From NCBI GenBank assembly GCA_913053875.1, contig CAJXGN010000003.1:248001-312000 (forward strand): DNA of 64,000 bases. The letters are read 5' to 3'. The stretch is from an uncultured Agromyces sp. Its GTDB lineage: Bacteria; Actinomycetota; Actinomycetes; Actinomycetales; Microbacteriaceae. Both the position numbers and the translations under genes were made by a program. This document shows positions 3,286-59,232 of the stretch, one piece after another (the stretch's first letter is position 1; each line of letters opens with the position of its first letter). A model generated the notes under the pieces. That model was not told where the DNA came from, made no database searches, and saw only the letters and a list, made by a program, of their open reading frames with translations.

Positions 3286-3327
3286 GGCGCGGACGCCGCG
3301 GGGTGGAACTCCCGTGGCATCCGCGCC
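3286..3327. terminator. Imperfect hairpin between convergent genes
   Basis: GGCGCGGA-GCC-CGGG pairs with CCCG-GGC-TCCGCGCC across an 8-base loop, with two single mismatches. It lies between the hydrolase-LuxR gene and the convergent ABC ATPase gene and could end transcription from both sides. There is no T-run, as is usual in high-GC actinobacteria. Confidence 0.55.
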
Positions 3328-4086: not shown

Positions 4087-5591
4087 GCGACGCTCCGAAG
4101 GGCCTCGGCCGGACGCAGCCGCGAGGCGCGCCAGCCTCCGATCGCGCCGGCGACGAGTCCGCCCAGCACTGCCAGGCCGACCGCGACGAGCACGACCGAG
4201 ACGGTCACCGGTGCGGTGAGCACGATGTCGGAGGTCGTGGTCGCTGCGGCGAACGGGCCGCCGTCCCCGGTGAGTCCCATCCGGTCCGCCGCCTCAGCCG
4301 CCGCCGCGGGCGCCTCGCCGCCGCCGAACGCCTGCACCGACCCGGCCGAGCCCGACAGCGTGGGCTGGATGAGCGTGATGGCGCCGATGCCGACGAGGCC
4401 GATCACGATGCCGAGGGCACCGCCGATGAGGCCCTGCACGAGCGACTCGCCCGCGACCTGGCCGACCACGCGGCGGTTCGACCAGCCGATGGCCTTGAGG
4501 GTGCCGAACTCGCGCGTGCGGCGGGTCACGCCCGACACGGTGAAGAGCACGGCGATCAGGAACGCGGCCGCGAGCACCGCGACCGAGAGCCACAGGCCGA
4601 GCGACGAGACGAGCGTCGACGCCGAGGAGAGCGAACCAGAGACCGATGACGCGAGGTCCTCCTGCGTGTTCACGGTCGCCTCGGGCAGCGCCTCCTCGAG
4701 GCTCGCCTGCACGGCGGTGATGTCGGTCGACGACGCGGCCTGCACGTAGACCGTGGAGACCTGGCCCTCGAGGCCGGCGAGCGCCTGCGCGGTGTCGAGC
4801 GGCAGGTAGACGTTCGCGCCGGTCGAGGCGTCCGCGGTGTCGGCGGTCACGAGTCCGACGATCTCCATGGTCGTGCCGCCGACGTCGATCGTGTCGCCGA
4901 CGGCGAGCTCGGCGGTCGTCGCGTACGCGGAGTCGAGGAGCGCCACGTCGGCACCCGCATCCGCCGCCTCGAGCCCGCGGCCCTCGGTCACGGCGGCCGA
5001 CGACAGCGGCCCGAGCGCGGATGCCGCGGGGTCGATGCCGAGCACCGTGAACGAGTCGACGTCGAACGCGCTGCCGCCGGCGCCGTCCGCACCGCCGGTC
5101 GGCGGAGCCTCGGCGCCCGCCTCGCCGGGCGCGCCCCCGCCGCCCTGCAGCTGCGAGAAGTCGGGCAGCTCGCCCGAGAACGTCGTGTTGGAGAGGGACA
5201 GCGCCGCAGCGGCATCCGCCACCCCCTCGGTCGACAGCGCGGTGTCGAGCGCGGTGTCGTCGAATGTCGCCGTTCCCATGCCGGTCGTCAGCCGGGAGTC
5301 GGAGACCGTGGTCGAGCCCTCGGCGTCGTCGGTCTCGCCATCCTCGGCGCCGAACTCGAAGCGGCCGCCCCCGGGGCCGCCCTCGCCCGGGCCCGTGGGC
5401 GCCTGCGTGACGGTGATGTCGGTGCCGACGCCGTAGACCGACTCGAGCACGGATGCCTGTGCGTCGCGCACACCCCCCGACAGTGCGTTGACGATCATGA
5501 CGAGTGCGATGGCCAGGGCCATGCCGATCGCCACGATGAGGGTCTGTCTGCGTCGGCCCGCGAGCTCGCGGCGCAGGTAGGTGAGGAACAT
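4083..5591 (-). CDS. ABC transporter permease, FtsX/MacB type
   Basis: A 502-residue permease with one N-terminal membrane segment (about 18-37), a long extracytoplasmic MacB periplasmic-core-like domain (40-325) rich in acidic, Gly, Ser and Thr residues, and three C-terminal segments (about 330-355, 385-410, 460-485). The region TRRTREFGTLKAIGWSNRRV is the conserved cytoplasmic coupling loop of FtsX-domain proteins. It pairs with the overlapping ATPase gene. The loop at about 60-175 carries several low-complexity Gly/Ala/Glu stretches. Substrate unknown; divergence from a response regulator suggests induction by an envelope signal. Confidence 0.88.
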   Translation of the reverse strand: MFLTYLRRELAGRRRQTLIVAIGMALAIALVMIVNALSGGVRDAQASVLESVYGVGTDITVTQAPTGPGEGGPGGGRFEFGAEDGETDDAEGSTTVSDSRLTTGMGTATFDDTALDTALSTEGVADAAAALSLSNTTFSGELPDFSQLQGGGGAPGEAGAEAPPTGGADGAGGSAFDVDSFTVLGIDPAASALGPLSSAAVTEGRGLEAADAGADVALLDSAYATTAELAVGDTIDVGGTTMEIVGLVTADTADASTGANVYLPLDTAQALAGLEGQVSTVYVQAASSTDITAVQASLEEALPEATVNTQEDLASSVSGSLSSASTLVSSLGLWLSVAVLAAAFLIAVLFTVSGVTRRTREFGTLKAIGWSNRRVVGQVAGESLVQGLIGGALGIVIGLVGIGAITLIQPTLSGSAGSVQAFGGGEAPAAAAEAADRMGLTGDGGPFAAATTTSDIVLTAPVTVSVVLVAVGLAVLGGLVAGAIGGWRASRLRPAEALRSVA

Positions 5592-8502: not shown

Positions 8503-8569
8503 TTGACAATGTCACATGACAATGTCAAGTGCACGATAGGGTGATGTGGTTGACGTTGTCAAGTAGGCT
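8503..8569. promoter_or_regulatory. Three TTGACnnnGTCAA operators and divergent promoters
   Basis: TTGACAATGTCAC (8503-8515), ATGACAATGTCAA (8516-8528) and TTGACGTTGTCAA (8550-8562) are near-identical palindromes; the first two abut. On the minus strand TTGACA (8562-8557), 18 bases, TATCGT (8538-8533) is a promoter for the flavoprotein gene, with site 3 on its -35 and sites 1-2 downstream. On the plus strand TAGGCT (8564-8569) lies seven bases before the TetR ATG, a leaderless promoter next to site 3. Binding by the adjacent TetR protein is inferred. Confidence 0.75.
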
Positions 8570-8576
8570 GGAACGC

Positions 8577-9167
8577 ATGGAACCCACCGTCGTCGCCGGC
8601 CGCGAGGCACTGCTCGCGTCGCTCGAGCGACTGGCGCGCGAGCGCGGGCTCGCCAACGTCGGCCTGCGCGAGGTCGCGCGTGACGCCGGACTCTCGCATG
8701 CGGCACCCGCGCACTTCTTCGGTTCGCGCGAGGGCATGCTGCGCGCGCTCGCGGGGGAGGGGCTGCGCCTGCTCTACGAAGACGTCTGCGAGGCGCAGGA
8801 GGCGCCCGGCGCGGTCGGCCGCGAGCGGCTGGTCGTCGACGCGCTCGCCTTCGTGCGCTTCGCCCTGGCGCATCCGGCCCACTTCGACGCAGTCTTCCGC
8901 ACGCCCGCCGCGCTGCGCGGCGACGCGCAGTTCGAGGCGAGGCGCGCCGAGGCGCTCGGGTCGCTGCGCGAGCTGGTCGAGCTCGTGCGCGCCGAGGGCG
9001 GGCTCGGGCCGGACGCCGACATCGACACCGTCGTGCTGCAGCACTGGGCGCTGAGCCACGGGGTCGCGTCGCTCGCGATCGACGGCATGCTCGGGCCCGA
9101 CGGCGACCCTGCGATCGCCGAGGCGGCCGAGCGCATCGTGCGCGGGCACGTGGCCGGGCTGCCCTGA
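8577..9167 (+). CDS. TetR/AcrR family transcriptional regulator
   Basis: A 196-residue regulator. The N-terminal helix-turn-helix covers about 12-58 (LANVGLREVARDAGLSHAAPAHFFGSREG, compressed here), with the TetR recognition helix ending in HFFGSREGML. The C-terminal part, ALAFVRFALAHPAHFDAVFR, resembles the WHG ligand-binding domain. ATG at 8577 sits seven bases after TAGGCT, so the transcript is probably leaderless. It should repress itself and the divergent flavoprotein gene through the three TTGACnnnGTCAA palindromes. The inducer is unknown. Confidence 0.9.
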   Translation: MEPTVVAGREALLASLERLARERGLANVGLREVARDAGLSHAAPAHFFGSREGMLRALAGEGLRLLYEDVCEAQEAPGAVGRERLVVDALAFVRFALAHPAHFDAVFRTPAALRGDAQFEARRAEALGSLRELVELVRAEGGLGPDADIDTVVLQHWALSHGVASLAIDGMLGPDGDPAIAEAAERIVRGHVAGLP

Positions 9168-56631: not shown

Positions 56632-57012
56632 TCAGTCCGCACGCATGCCGGGCGACCCGAGCACCCGCTCGACGGTCAGTTCGAGCACCACCCGCTCGGG
56701 GTTCGGGCGCGGCTGCCGGTAGCGGGCGGCGTAGAGCTCGACGGCGAGGGCGACCGACTCGGGGTCGGCGAGGATGCGCACCGGGCCCTCGAAGCCGATC
56801 CAGCGCCCGCCGTCGACCGACGCGACGGTCGCACGGCCGCTGCGCTCGGCGTTCAGGAACTTCTGCGAGCCGCGGCTGCCGATCACGCGCACGATGCCGT
56901 CGCGGTAGGTGATGCCGACGGGCACCGCGTGGATGCGGCCGTCGCTGCCCAGCGTGGACAGGGTGGCGAGGTGGCGTTCGGCCAGGAACTCGTGCGCGGC
57001 GTCAGTGATCAC
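56632..57012 (-). CDS. PPOX-class F420-dependent-like oxidoreductase
   Basis: A 126-residue split-barrel protein: FLAERHLATLSTLGSDGRIH, PVGITYRDGIVRVIGSRGSQ and RATVASVDGGRWIGFEGPVR match the F420/FMN PPOX branch common in actinobacteria. GTG 57012 is six bases after TAGCGT, so leaderless. This start region is part of a 31-bp repeat shared with the gene at 57362-58261. Substrate unknown. Confidence 0.88.
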   Translation of the reverse strand: MITDAAHEFLAERHLATLSTLGSDGRIHAVPVGITYRDGIVRVIGSRGSQKFLNAERSGRATVASVDGGRWIGFEGPVRILADPESVALAVELYAARYRQPRPNPERVVLELTVERVLGSPGMRAD

Positions 57013-57035
57013 CGGGCCACGCTACCCCGTCAGGT
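57005..57035 (-). repeat. 31-bp promoter/start module, copy 1
   Basis: Matches 58254-58284 at 30 of 31 positions. In gene direction it contains the stop of the upstream gene, TAGCGT (-10), GGCCCG and the start GTGATCAC of the downstream gene. Confidence 0.85.
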
Positions 57036-57254
57036 GGCCGGCGGTTCCGGCTCGTCGACACCGAGCCCGACCGCCCGGTGGTCCGGCTCCGCCTCGTCCG
57101 GCTCCGCATCGTCCGGCTCCGCCGAGCGCGGTTCCTCGCCGGGCTCGGTCTCGGTGCTCGGCTCCTCGAGTTCCTGGTCGGGAACCGCCTCGGTGTCCGG
57201 TTCGTCCGGCGTCTCGTCGGGAGCGGTGTCGTCGGCTCCGGTGGTGTCCGTCAT
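57030..57254 (-). CDS. Small acidic, disordered protein
   Basis: A 74-residue protein almost wholly Asp, Glu, Pro, Thr and Ala (for example DDAEPDEAEPDHRAVG), expected to be unfolded. CGGAGG lies 5 bases before ATG 57254, which supports translation. No family recognised. Its last codons and stop lie in the 31-bp repeat. Similar small acidic proteins occur in this group, but a chance frame cannot be excluded. Confidence 0.5.
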   Translation of the reverse strand: MTDTTGADDTAPDETPDEPDTEAVPDQELEEPSTETEPGEEPRSAEPDDAEPDEAEPDHRAVGLGVDEPEPPAT

Positions 57255-57361
57255 CGCGGCCTCCGTGGTCGTGGTCGGTGCTCCCACCCTGCAACGGCGA
57301 GTCGCCGTTCGTCACCGGGTTGACCGACGACGGGTGCGGGAGTACCGGACGGCGAAGGGGA

Positions 57362-58261
57362 TCACGACGTCGCGCCGTACCGCTCGACAGCTCCGAGCAG
57401 CGCGACGAGCATCGCGTTCAGCGGAGTGGGGATGCCGTGGCGGGCGCCGGCGCGCACGATCGCGCCGTTGCGGGCGTCGATCTCCATCGGGCGCCCCGCC
57501 AGGCGGTCGGCGTGCAGCGAGTTGATGCCGTCGCCGGGGCCCTGACGGTTCGCGGCGACGACCTCGTCGGCGAGGTCGTCGGGCAGGACGGCACCCTCGG
57601 CTCGGCCGACGGCGATCGTCTCGCGGATGATCTCCCGCATGAGGTCGGCGACCACGTCGTCGTGTGCGATGCGCGGCGGCGCCAGGGTCACCGCGTTCAC
57701 GGCGCCGACCGAGTTGACGCACAGCTTGCGCCAGAGGGCCGACCGCATGTCGTCGGTGGTGCGCACGTCGAGCCCCGAGCCCGCGAACACCTCGACGAAC
57801 GCGACCCCGGCGGGCGTATCCGGCACGGTGAGGATGCCCGCGCCGCGCTGTCGCACGACCCCGGGCGCGGTGCGCTCGGCCGGGAGGTCGATCATGACCG
57901 GCAGGAGTCGGTCGCGGTCGACGAACCGCTCGAAGCGCTCGACGTGCTCCACGCCGTTCTGCACGATCGCCACCCGCGTGCGCTCGTCCAGTAACCCGGG
58001 CAGCCAGCGAGCAGCACCCTCGGCGTCGTACGCCTTCGTCGTGACCAGCACCCAGTCGACCGGCGTCGCCTGCGCGGGGTCGGTGATGACGGATACCTCG
58101 GCGCGCACGACCGACTCGCCGTCGTGCAGTTCCAGTTCGCGGAACGGCGTGCGCACGGCGACGGTCACGGCGCTGCCCGCGCCGGAGGCGAGTCGTGCGG
58201 CCAGTGCGGTGCCGATGGCACCGGGCCCGATGACGGCGATCGTGGGTGTCTCGGTGATCAC
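57362..58261 (-). CDS. Ketopantoate reductase family protein (PanE/ApbA)
   Basis: A 299-residue NADPH enzyme: Rossmann IAVIGPGAIGTALAARLAS, VTTKAYD, VAIVQNGVEHVERF with the family Asn-Gly, catalytic Lys in WRKLCVNSVGAVNAVTLAP and GINSLHADRLAGRPMEID at the C-domain. It may make pantoate for CoA, though several PanE-like proteins of other function exist. GTG 58261 is six bases after TACCGT (leaderless) in the second copy of the 31-bp module. Confidence 0.9.
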   Translation of the reverse strand: MITETPTIAVIGPGAIGTALAARLASGAGSAVTVAVRTPFRELELHDGESVVRAEVSVITDPAQATPVDWVLVTTKAYDAEGAARWLPGLLDERTRVAIVQNGVEHVERFERFVDRDRLLPVMIDLPAERTAPGVVRQRGAGILTVPDTPAGVAFVEVFAGSGLDVRTTDDMRSALWRKLCVNSVGAVNAVTLAPPRIAHDDVVADLMREIIRETIAVGRAEGAVLPDDLADEVVAANRQGPGDGINSLHADRLAGRPMEIDARNGAIVRAGARHGIPTPLNAMLVALLGAVERYGATS

Positions 58262-58284
58262 CGGGCCACGGTACCCCGTCAGGT
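58254..58284 (-). repeat. 31-bp promoter/start module, copy 2
   Basis: One base different from 57005-57035 (TACCGT instead of TAGCGT in the -10). It again runs from the upstream gene's final codon and stop to the first codons of the downstream gene. Confidence 0.85.
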
Positions 58285-58560
58285 CGCGCGTAGGCCCGAG
58301 ATGCGGATGACCCCTGCGCGCAGCCCGTCGTCGGTGAGCTCCGACGTGCGCGTCAGCTCCGCATCCGACAGGTCGTAGGCGCCCGAGAGGCGATGTCGGA
58401 TGGCCGCCTCCTCGCCGTCGGGTCCGATCTCCTTGGCGTGCACCACGACGATGTCGTGCACCGTGCCGTCGCCGGCCGTGACGGTGACCGCCCAGCCGGA
58501 GTTCTGTCCGAAGTCGTTCAGGTGCGGACGGGCCACACCGTGCAGCGTGTCTTCCCCCAT
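58279..58560 (-). CDS. Conserved-looking hypothetical protein
   Basis: A 93-residue soluble protein: LHGVARPHLNDFGQNSGWAV and VTAGDGTVHDIVVVHAKEIG form a beta-rich N-half; the C-half is helical and acidic. TAGAGT lies six bases before ATG 58560, a leaderless start like its neighbours. No family recognised. Lies between the YdeI-like and ketopantoate reductase-like genes. Confidence 0.65.
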   Translation of the reverse strand: MGEDTLHGVARPHLNDFGQNSGWAVTVTAGDGTVHDIVVVHAKEIGPDGEEAAIRHRLSGAYDLSDAELTRTSELTDDGLRAGVIRISGLRAT

Positions 58561-58569
58561 GGGGTCACT

Positions 58570-59232
58570 CTACGACTCCGCACGCGCCGCCGCAGCAGCC
58601 CGTTCGACCCACTTCGGCTCGTCGCCGTAGCGCTGGAACGACACCAGCCGCCCCGCGGCGCTGTCGTCGATGAGCTGCTGGAGCCGCCGGTCGCGCGTCG
58701 CCTGCTGCTTCGCGGTGAGGATCCAGTTCGTCACGACGGCGCGGTACGAGGGGGTCGCCTCGTTCCAGAAGGCGGTGGCGGGGGCGGATGCCGCGAGCTG
58801 CTCGGCGTACTCGGGCGGCAGTTCCGTGAGCCGCGTCTCCGACGAGTACCCGGTCGCCTGGTCGGCACGCCGGCCCTCGAACGCGGCGATGCCGGCAGGT
58901 CGCATCCGCCCCTCGGCCGTCAACCGCTCGACGAGCGCGATGTTCACTGCCGACCAGACGCTCGTGCGCTTGCGCGGGGTCCAGCGCTGGCGCCGGGCGT
59001 CCTCGTCGATGCGCTGGCCGACCGAGTCGATCCAGCCGAAGCAGAGCGCTTCGGGCACCGCCTCCTCCCACGTGAGGCCCCGGTCTGGGACGTGCTTCTT
59101 GTAGAGCCCCATCCAGAGCTCGGTCTCGGTCTCGTGGTTCGCCACGAGCCAGGCGCGGAACTCCTCGGGCCCGGTGAAGAACAGCGCCGGTCGCTCGGGC
59201 GTGCCGCCGGGCGTTCCGATCTGGGCGGTCAT
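58570..59232 (-). CDS. YdeI/OmpD-associated family protein
   Basis: A 220-residue cytoplasmic protein: FTGPEEFRAWLVANHETETE, LWMGLYKKHVPDRGLTWEEA, VPEALCFGWIDSVGQRIDED and RRQRWTPRKRTSVWSAVNIA are typical of the YdeI family, linked to bacteriocin protection or stress by annotation only. A helical C-terminal repeat ends in RAAAAARAES. ATG 59232 is six bases after CACACT, probably leaderless. True role unknown. Confidence 0.88.
   Translation of the reverse strand: MTAQIGTPGGTPERPALFFTGPEEFRAWLVANHETETELWMGLYKKHVPDRGLTWEEAVPEALCFGWIDSVGQRIDEDARRQRWTPRKRTSVWSAVNIALVERLTAEGRMRPAGIAAFEGRRADQATGYSSETRLTELPPEYAEQLAASAPATAFWNEATPSYRAVVTNWILTAKQQATRDRRLQQLIDDSAAGRLVSFQRYGDEPKWVERAAAAARAES

Follow-up and report, generated by a model that had tools for sequence, protein, structure and literature searches.

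Two near-identical stop-promoter-start junctions in Agromyces: probable copying of one leaderless promoter followed by gene conversion

Introduction

Two genes lying close together on the minus strand of an Agromyces contig are preceded by almost the same 31 bases, which run from the end of the gene upstream through a predicted promoter into the first codons of the gene downstream. The stretch of DNA analysed here is 64,000 nucleotides long and is referred to as the window. An earlier note, made from its sequence, had proposed that recombination swaps genes around a fixed leaderless promoter. The locus raises the question of how two genes with different products came to share one junction, and how far the answer extends beyond this single place in the genome.

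The repeated module and its neighbours

On the minus strand, the locus is arranged in the order OmdA-like gene (PF13376), gene A, module copy R2, panE, acidic gene, module copy R1, PPOX, and LuxR-type regulator. The main features are the following:

56632..57012, minus strand: PPOX, pyridoxamine 5'-phosphate oxidase family protein (PNPOx_N, Pfam), 126 aa
57005..57035, minus strand: R1, module copy between the acidic gene and PPOX; TGA 57032-57030, -10 box TAGCGT 57024-57019, GTG 57012-57010
57030..57287, minus strand: small acidic gene without a Pfam match at E <= 0.001; probable start ATG 57254 after GGAGG (by eye)
57340..57367, minus strand: panE stop and the next bases, possibly what is left of a former PPOX start (some 10 bases, a weak resemblance judged by eye)
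57362..58261, minus strand: panE, a panE/ApbA-like reductase (ketopantoate reductase, Pfam), 299 aa
58254..58284, minus strand: R2, module copy between gene A and panE, probably overwritten; TGA 58281-58279, -10 box TACCGT 58273-58268, GTG 58261-58259
58279..58560, minus strand: gene A, 93 aa, without a Pfam match at E <= 0.001; the gene that natively lies upstream of the promoter

Each copy of the module comprises the last sense codon and the TGA of the upstream gene, a -10 box, and the beginning of the downstream gene, with its GTG and first codons. The copies lie 1249 bp apart on either side of the panE-acidic block and, as direct reading of the minus strand confirmed, are identical at 30 of 31 bases, as the earlier note had stated; the sole mismatch is at module position 14 (58271 in R2, 57022 in R1). 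The flanking genes do differ, and the downstream pair is unrelated by Pfam (ketopantoate reductase vs PNPOx_N). Further copies, for which the same note had suggested searching the genome, did not turn up, as only R1 and R2 were found within 3 mismatches of the 31-mer in the 3.5-Mb genome of the window (G000), where a reversed control pattern gave 0 matches and a looser pattern (20 fixed bases, <=3 mismatches) added no copy. Applied to four genomes, the looser pattern found convincing copies only at the A/panE/PPOX locus, together with two 3-mismatch matches (one in G005, one in G023) that were taken as chance. The module was also absent, with up to 7 substitutions allowed, from 14 loci of other species (L040-L053), and in none of three genomes with distant A homologues (G034, G063, and G070; 63-65%) was it seen by eye directly behind A.

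A predicted leaderless promoter

In Actinobacteria, leaderless genes have been described as making up around one fifth of all genes and as carrying a TANNNT signal about 12 bp before the start (PMC3160421). R1 and R2 resemble the genes described there in that both have such a box (TANCGT; TACCGT in R2 and TAGCGT in R1), which ends 6 nt before the GTG. The source describes the signal itself, whereas here the signal is duplicated and appears to have been converted between neighbours. Among 1992 candidate starts in 193 coding-like ORFs from 304 kb of G000 (the window and C3:8001-248000), TANNNT was found 26 and 20 times at 6 and 7 nt before an in-frame start, respectively (46 matches in all), and 0-7 times at each of the other distances from 0 to 30. 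In a second gene call, leaderless-like starts made up 13-18% of the called genes in the three genomes sampled. It is likely that R1 and R2 are leaderless promoters that drive leaderless expression, and the module is predicted to be active as a promoter, which agrees with the -10 box and leaderless start that the earlier note had read in it.

The shared signal does not account for the resemblance between the copies. When 47 leaderless-like starts from the 304 kb of G000 (R1 included, R2 outside owing to the ORF filter) were compared in the same 31-base frame, the 1081 pairs had a mean of 12.4 matches and a maximum of 21. Since such starts share at most 21 of 31 bases, the match of R1 and R2 is not explained by a common consensus and would require common descent. 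A stop triplet in any frame was present at -20 to -7 in 37 of the 47 starts, a count of little meaning because the TAG inside the -10 box is included.

Two further arrangements involving leaderless-like starts were seen in the window. At 58561..58572 (minus strand) the stop-promoter-start junction is even tighter, as the OmdA-like gene ends in a TAG that also supplies the first three bases of TAGAGT, the -10 box of the leaderless-like gene A. Two leaderless-like starts in the same frame and 27 bases apart lie at 8505-8580, behind two GACAATGTCA-type repeats that possibly represent an operator.

The locus in related genomes

A sample of 60 genomes of the genus, which includes G000, was searched for the genes of the locus. 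Gene A was found in 7 of the 60, and panE in five at E <= 1e-20, three with 87-100% identity and two with 38-42%. The acidic region had some match in 37 genomes, exceeding 300 bases in 3 and short in the remainder. Against a collection of named genomes panE matched 69 loci, mostly of other phyla; the best among the matches listed were from Caulobacter and Steroidobacter (55-60%), and the nearest actinobacterial one among them was from Humibacter (54%). From this distribution, panE was probably acquired by horizontal transfer.

Three relatives (G005, G015, and G023) carry the locus in different arrangements. Over 202-237 kb, the identity is 92.0% between G000 and G005, 88.9% between G000 and G023, and 88.4% between G005 and G023, while at the OmdA-like gene, A, and PPOX it is G015 that stands furthest from the other three. 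These identities point to G015 as the outgroup and to G000 and G005 as the closest pair. With P denoting the promoter, G005 has the order of the window (A-P-panE-acidic-P-PPOX). In G015 the order is A-P-panE-PPOX, with the PPOX start lying within the panE stop and no acidic gene in between; of the 30 fixed bases in the module pattern its promoter shares only 22, so that homology is judged by position, and the LuxR regulator has no match in this genome at E <= 1e-30. In G023, A is joined through P directly to PPOX, and panE has no match at E <= 1e-20. The G023 promoter has one extra base (G) and GC at positions 8-9, and 17 bases are duplicated locally where A ends. A further place in this genome, 43 kb away, has a broken PPOX piece followed by the acidic gene and by the gene that follows LuxR in the window.

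These arrangements bear on the earlier note in two ways. Hybrid junctions, which it had named as something to look for, do occur, as the A-P-PPOX junction of G023 illustrates, and the same copies in the same order in every relative, which it had named as refuting its proposal, were not found, as both order and copies vary among G005, G015, and G023.

Two further stretches were noted. In G023 (C1, 914.4-957.3 kb; L089, L180-L181), 43 kb separate the intact PPOX from the broken PPOX piece and the acidic gene; this stretch has no match of at least 100 bases with the window at E <= 1e-15, and at its far end lie a LacI-like regulator and a fucosidase-like gene (named by eye). In G015 (L037:3282-4710), about 1.4 kb with a 448-aa ORF lie between the OmdA-like gene and A, which retains its leaderless box, and the alignments on either side of this stretch overlap by 19 window bases.

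Probable overwriting of R2 by R1

Comparison with G005 suggests that much of the identity between the two copies is secondary. In G005, R1 and R2 match at 26 of 31 bases and differ at positions 8, 9, 20, 21, and 28. The R2 of G000 differs from that of G005 at exactly these five sites and nowhere else in the 31 bases, and at 5/5 it has the base of R1; under five uniform substitutions, the probability of this agreement in both sites and bases is 2.4e-8. At positions 8, 9, 21, and 28, G015 agrees with the R2 of G005, so that at 4/5 sites the change is placed on the side of G000. At position 20, G015, the R2 of G005, and R1 have three different bases, and polarity is not assignable. R2 of the window thus carries the donor base at all five diagnostic sites while its flanks remain those of A and panE, and the direction is given by the outgroup at four of them. 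The five switched sites are read directly from the genomes, as are the junctions and their order in the four species.

In the lineage of the window, R1 would have overwritten R2 by gene conversion along a tract of 21 to 34 bases. This conversion would have replaced five bases, one of them in the second codon of panE, whose product begins with MIT in the window, MST in G005, and MRT in G015, so that two unrelated proteins now begin with MIT. It is most likely that the identity at 30 of 31 bases is largely secondary, conversion having raised it from a state like the 26 of 31 still present in G005.

Gene conversion between paralogous stretches is known in bacteria, and the present case resembles it in the one-way replacement at all diagnostic sites. 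It is unlike it in that the tract spans only 21-34 bases and covers a promoter together with the first codons of an unrelated gene. Such a tract is short for homologous recombination, which counts against the conversion account. Among the titles and abstracts listed in literature searches, none dealt with conversion from one leaderless promoter to another.

Proposed origin of R1 and copying of the promoter

R1 itself appears to be composite. Its beginning, CCTGACGGGGT, is the 3' end of the acidic gene, which is also present in G023, where this promoter does not come next; the GG of R1 is likewise found at the 3' end of the acidic gene in G023. The middle of R1 is a promoter of the A type. Its end, GTGATCACC, is the PPOX start and belongs to the type (A/G)TGATCACCGA(C/T). 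Among 11 starts of PPOX from other species that were aligned besides G005, TGATCACCGA(C/T) occurs in 5 and TGCTGACCGA in the remaining 6, and the panE starts of G005 and G015 differ from this PPOX type. The beginning of R1 likely derives from the 3' end of the acidic gene with CCTGACGGGGT, and the end of the module likely from the PPOX start (A/G)TGATCACCGA(C/T). Three sources seem to be combined in R1, as would be expected of a rearrangement junction at short similarity. The acidic 3' end is joined to P within CCTGAC..GGT, a similarity shared with the end of A, from which a duplicated unit may be supposed.

Both copies would go back to one ancestral leaderless promoter P between A and panE. 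In G015, P probably served both panE and PPOX, because PPOX there overlaps the panE stop. Before G000 and G005 diverged, the acidic 3' end (CCTGACGGGGT) may have come to lie beside P at a second place, by duplication or unequal exchange. This joining would have run through the short similarity CCTGAC..GGT, with panE missing from that copy, and PPOX would thereby have gained a leaderless promoter of its own (R1). The simplest route for the copying would be a tandem duplication of P-panE-PPOX-acidic that was trimmed later. We infer this tandem-duplication step, the panE-lacking intermediate, and conversion within one genome rather than import from the sequences compared here. Two full copies of the duplicated unit are present in none of the four genomes with the locus, and a broken second PPOX is present in G023 only. 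The presence there of one intact PPOX after A-P and of a PPOX fragment ahead of the acidic gene is what would be expected if PPOX had once been duplicated. In G000 and G005, a few bases after the panE stop (about 10, a weak resemblance seen by eye) are similar to a lost PPOX start. The A-P-PPOX junction of G023 may have arisen by recombination between the P copies, or panE may have been lost independently there, by way of the similarity between its start and that of PPOX.

The whole account, in which one promoter between A and panE was copied and R1 later overwrote R2 by conversion, is in our judgement fairly probable. Against it stands that a tandem duplication would have to be followed by the loss of panE, one PPOX, and one acidic gene, a series found stepwise in no sampled genome. 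The extra base and the 17-base duplication in G023 also count against it, so that an independent loss of panE is possible there.

Alternative explanations

The R1-type junction before panE may instead have been imported by homologous recombination from a relative in which A was already joined to an R1-like module, and G023, where A is joined to PPOX, illustrates that such donors occur. We consider this rather unlikely, as the switched sites all lie inside the repeat, with panE following directly, and as the G023 module departs from R1 in places, with GC at positions 8-9 and an extra G. Insertion of the panE-acidic block between direct repeats as a mobile or site-specific cassette, by a recombinase or with target duplication, would fit the repeats that enclose the block 1249 bp apart and the patchy presence of panE (high-identity matches in 3/60 genus genomes). 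It is nevertheless very unlikely. Pfam revealed no recombinase family in either block gene (panE and the acidic gene), the genome holds no other copies, and R1 looks put together from the end of the acidic gene, the promoter, and the start of PPOX rather than copied as a target. Mobility of such a cassette was rejected, as neither a recombinase among the two block genes nor repeated insertion sites in the genome were found and as G015 contradicts it by having panE without a second module copy.

Leaderless-like starts are common in G000, and a strong consensus needed by both genes could in principle have led to the same bases by convergence. This is scarcely credible, as the best other pair among 1081 reaches 21/31, no other near match exists genome-wide, and the match of R1 and R2 covers non-consensus bases and first codons; convergence was rejected on the genome-wide searches and the pairwise comparison of the 47 starts. 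It is also highly improbable that a short-read assembler copied one junction onto the other, even though G000 is in 26 contigs. The copies differ at position 14 and lie within one 335-kb contig, and the single-contig genome of G005 has the same gene order with both copies; assuming reads longer than 31 bases, an assembly error was rejected on these grounds. Finally, recurrent deletion and retention through the P copies might act as an adaptive switch by which one gene or another comes under P, for which the three partner combinations in four species (A-P-panE, A-P-PPOX, and acidic-P-PPOX) could speak. We give this reading very little credence, as it would have to be drawn from a comparison between species that covers four genomes and about three events.

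Relation to known systems

Tandem duplication at short microhomology, selected through the activation of a transferred gene, has been described (PMC11111574). The likeness to the system described there lies in the short junction similarity, the duplication, and the activation of a transferred gene that we propose; the difference is that the described case was engineered and selected, whereas the event proposed here would be old, natural, and later trimmed. The locus also stands close to a further known process.

In horizontal regulatory transfer, or intergenic switching, the region upstream of a gene is replaced by another. The replacement of an upstream region is common to both, while the source in the present case would most likely be the neighbouring gene in the same genome. 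The locus alone reveals no new system and is a neat example of known processes. Its value would lie in being a well-resolved case in which a gene gains a promoter, and even new first codons, from its neighbour via very short recombination, and the compact leaderless junctions of these bacteria may make such swaps tolerable.

Leaderless junctions as possible exchange points

The proposal of the earlier note that recombination swaps genes around a fixed leaderless promoter holds up at this locus, given the hybrid in G023 and the varying order, but would be conjecture as a general mechanism, with one locus in four genomes behind it. The sequences point to gene exchange about a single promoter, seen at one locus among the four genomes searched. 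This looks like a clear mark left by ordinary DNA recombination and not like a system that plugs in genes throughout the genome. A broader idea would be that compact stop-leaderless promoter-start junctions are sockets, at which genes are swapped via tiny similarities with expression intact and which are kept alike by conversion. Such swaps would leave expression unbroken because the promoter and the start together take up about 25 bases behind the stop. We regard this idea of favoured exchange points as unlikely on the small sample studied here.

Gene-scale indels were surveyed in three pairwise comparisons that took in 304 kb from G000 and 400 kb from each of the other two genomes, G005 and G023. 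Five of 44 clean indels fell within -45..+20 of a leaderless-like start, a zone that 0.8-1.4% of random positions fall into. A cruder count with a zone of -60..+20 and merged sites gave 7/34 (p = 0.74, 0.11, and 0.05 at base rates of 24%, 12%, and 10%), the zone and the merging having been chosen after the list was seen. Better gene calls yielded 26 indel clusters, and leaderless starts accounted for 4/8, 6/11, and 6/16 of the gene-start clusters at 45, 60, and 100 bases upstream, with p = 0.02, 0.003, and 0.02 against the 15% leaderless share of called starts; the middle (60-base) zone was likewise chosen post hoc. When this locus is left out, the counts become 3/7, 5/10, and 5/15 (p = 0.07, 0.01, and 0.06 at 15%; 0.22, 0.07, and 0.28 at 24%). 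The leaderless share stays at 15% among genes that are not tightly packed behind a gene on the same strand. Gene calls place leaderless starts with greater certainty than other starts, which biases the test upward. The excess of indels at leaderless starts is weak, confounded, and sensitive to the zone, the base rate, and this locus, and it neither supports nor refutes the idea of sockets.

A case of similar appearance was noted in G005 (L192), where a 19-base operator-like repeat with a small palindrome (3288-3306 and 4556-4574) surrounds a stretch of about 1.25 kb. This stretch, which is absent in G000 and G023, holds an 86% paralogue of the adjoining gene and lies near a leaderless-scoring start.
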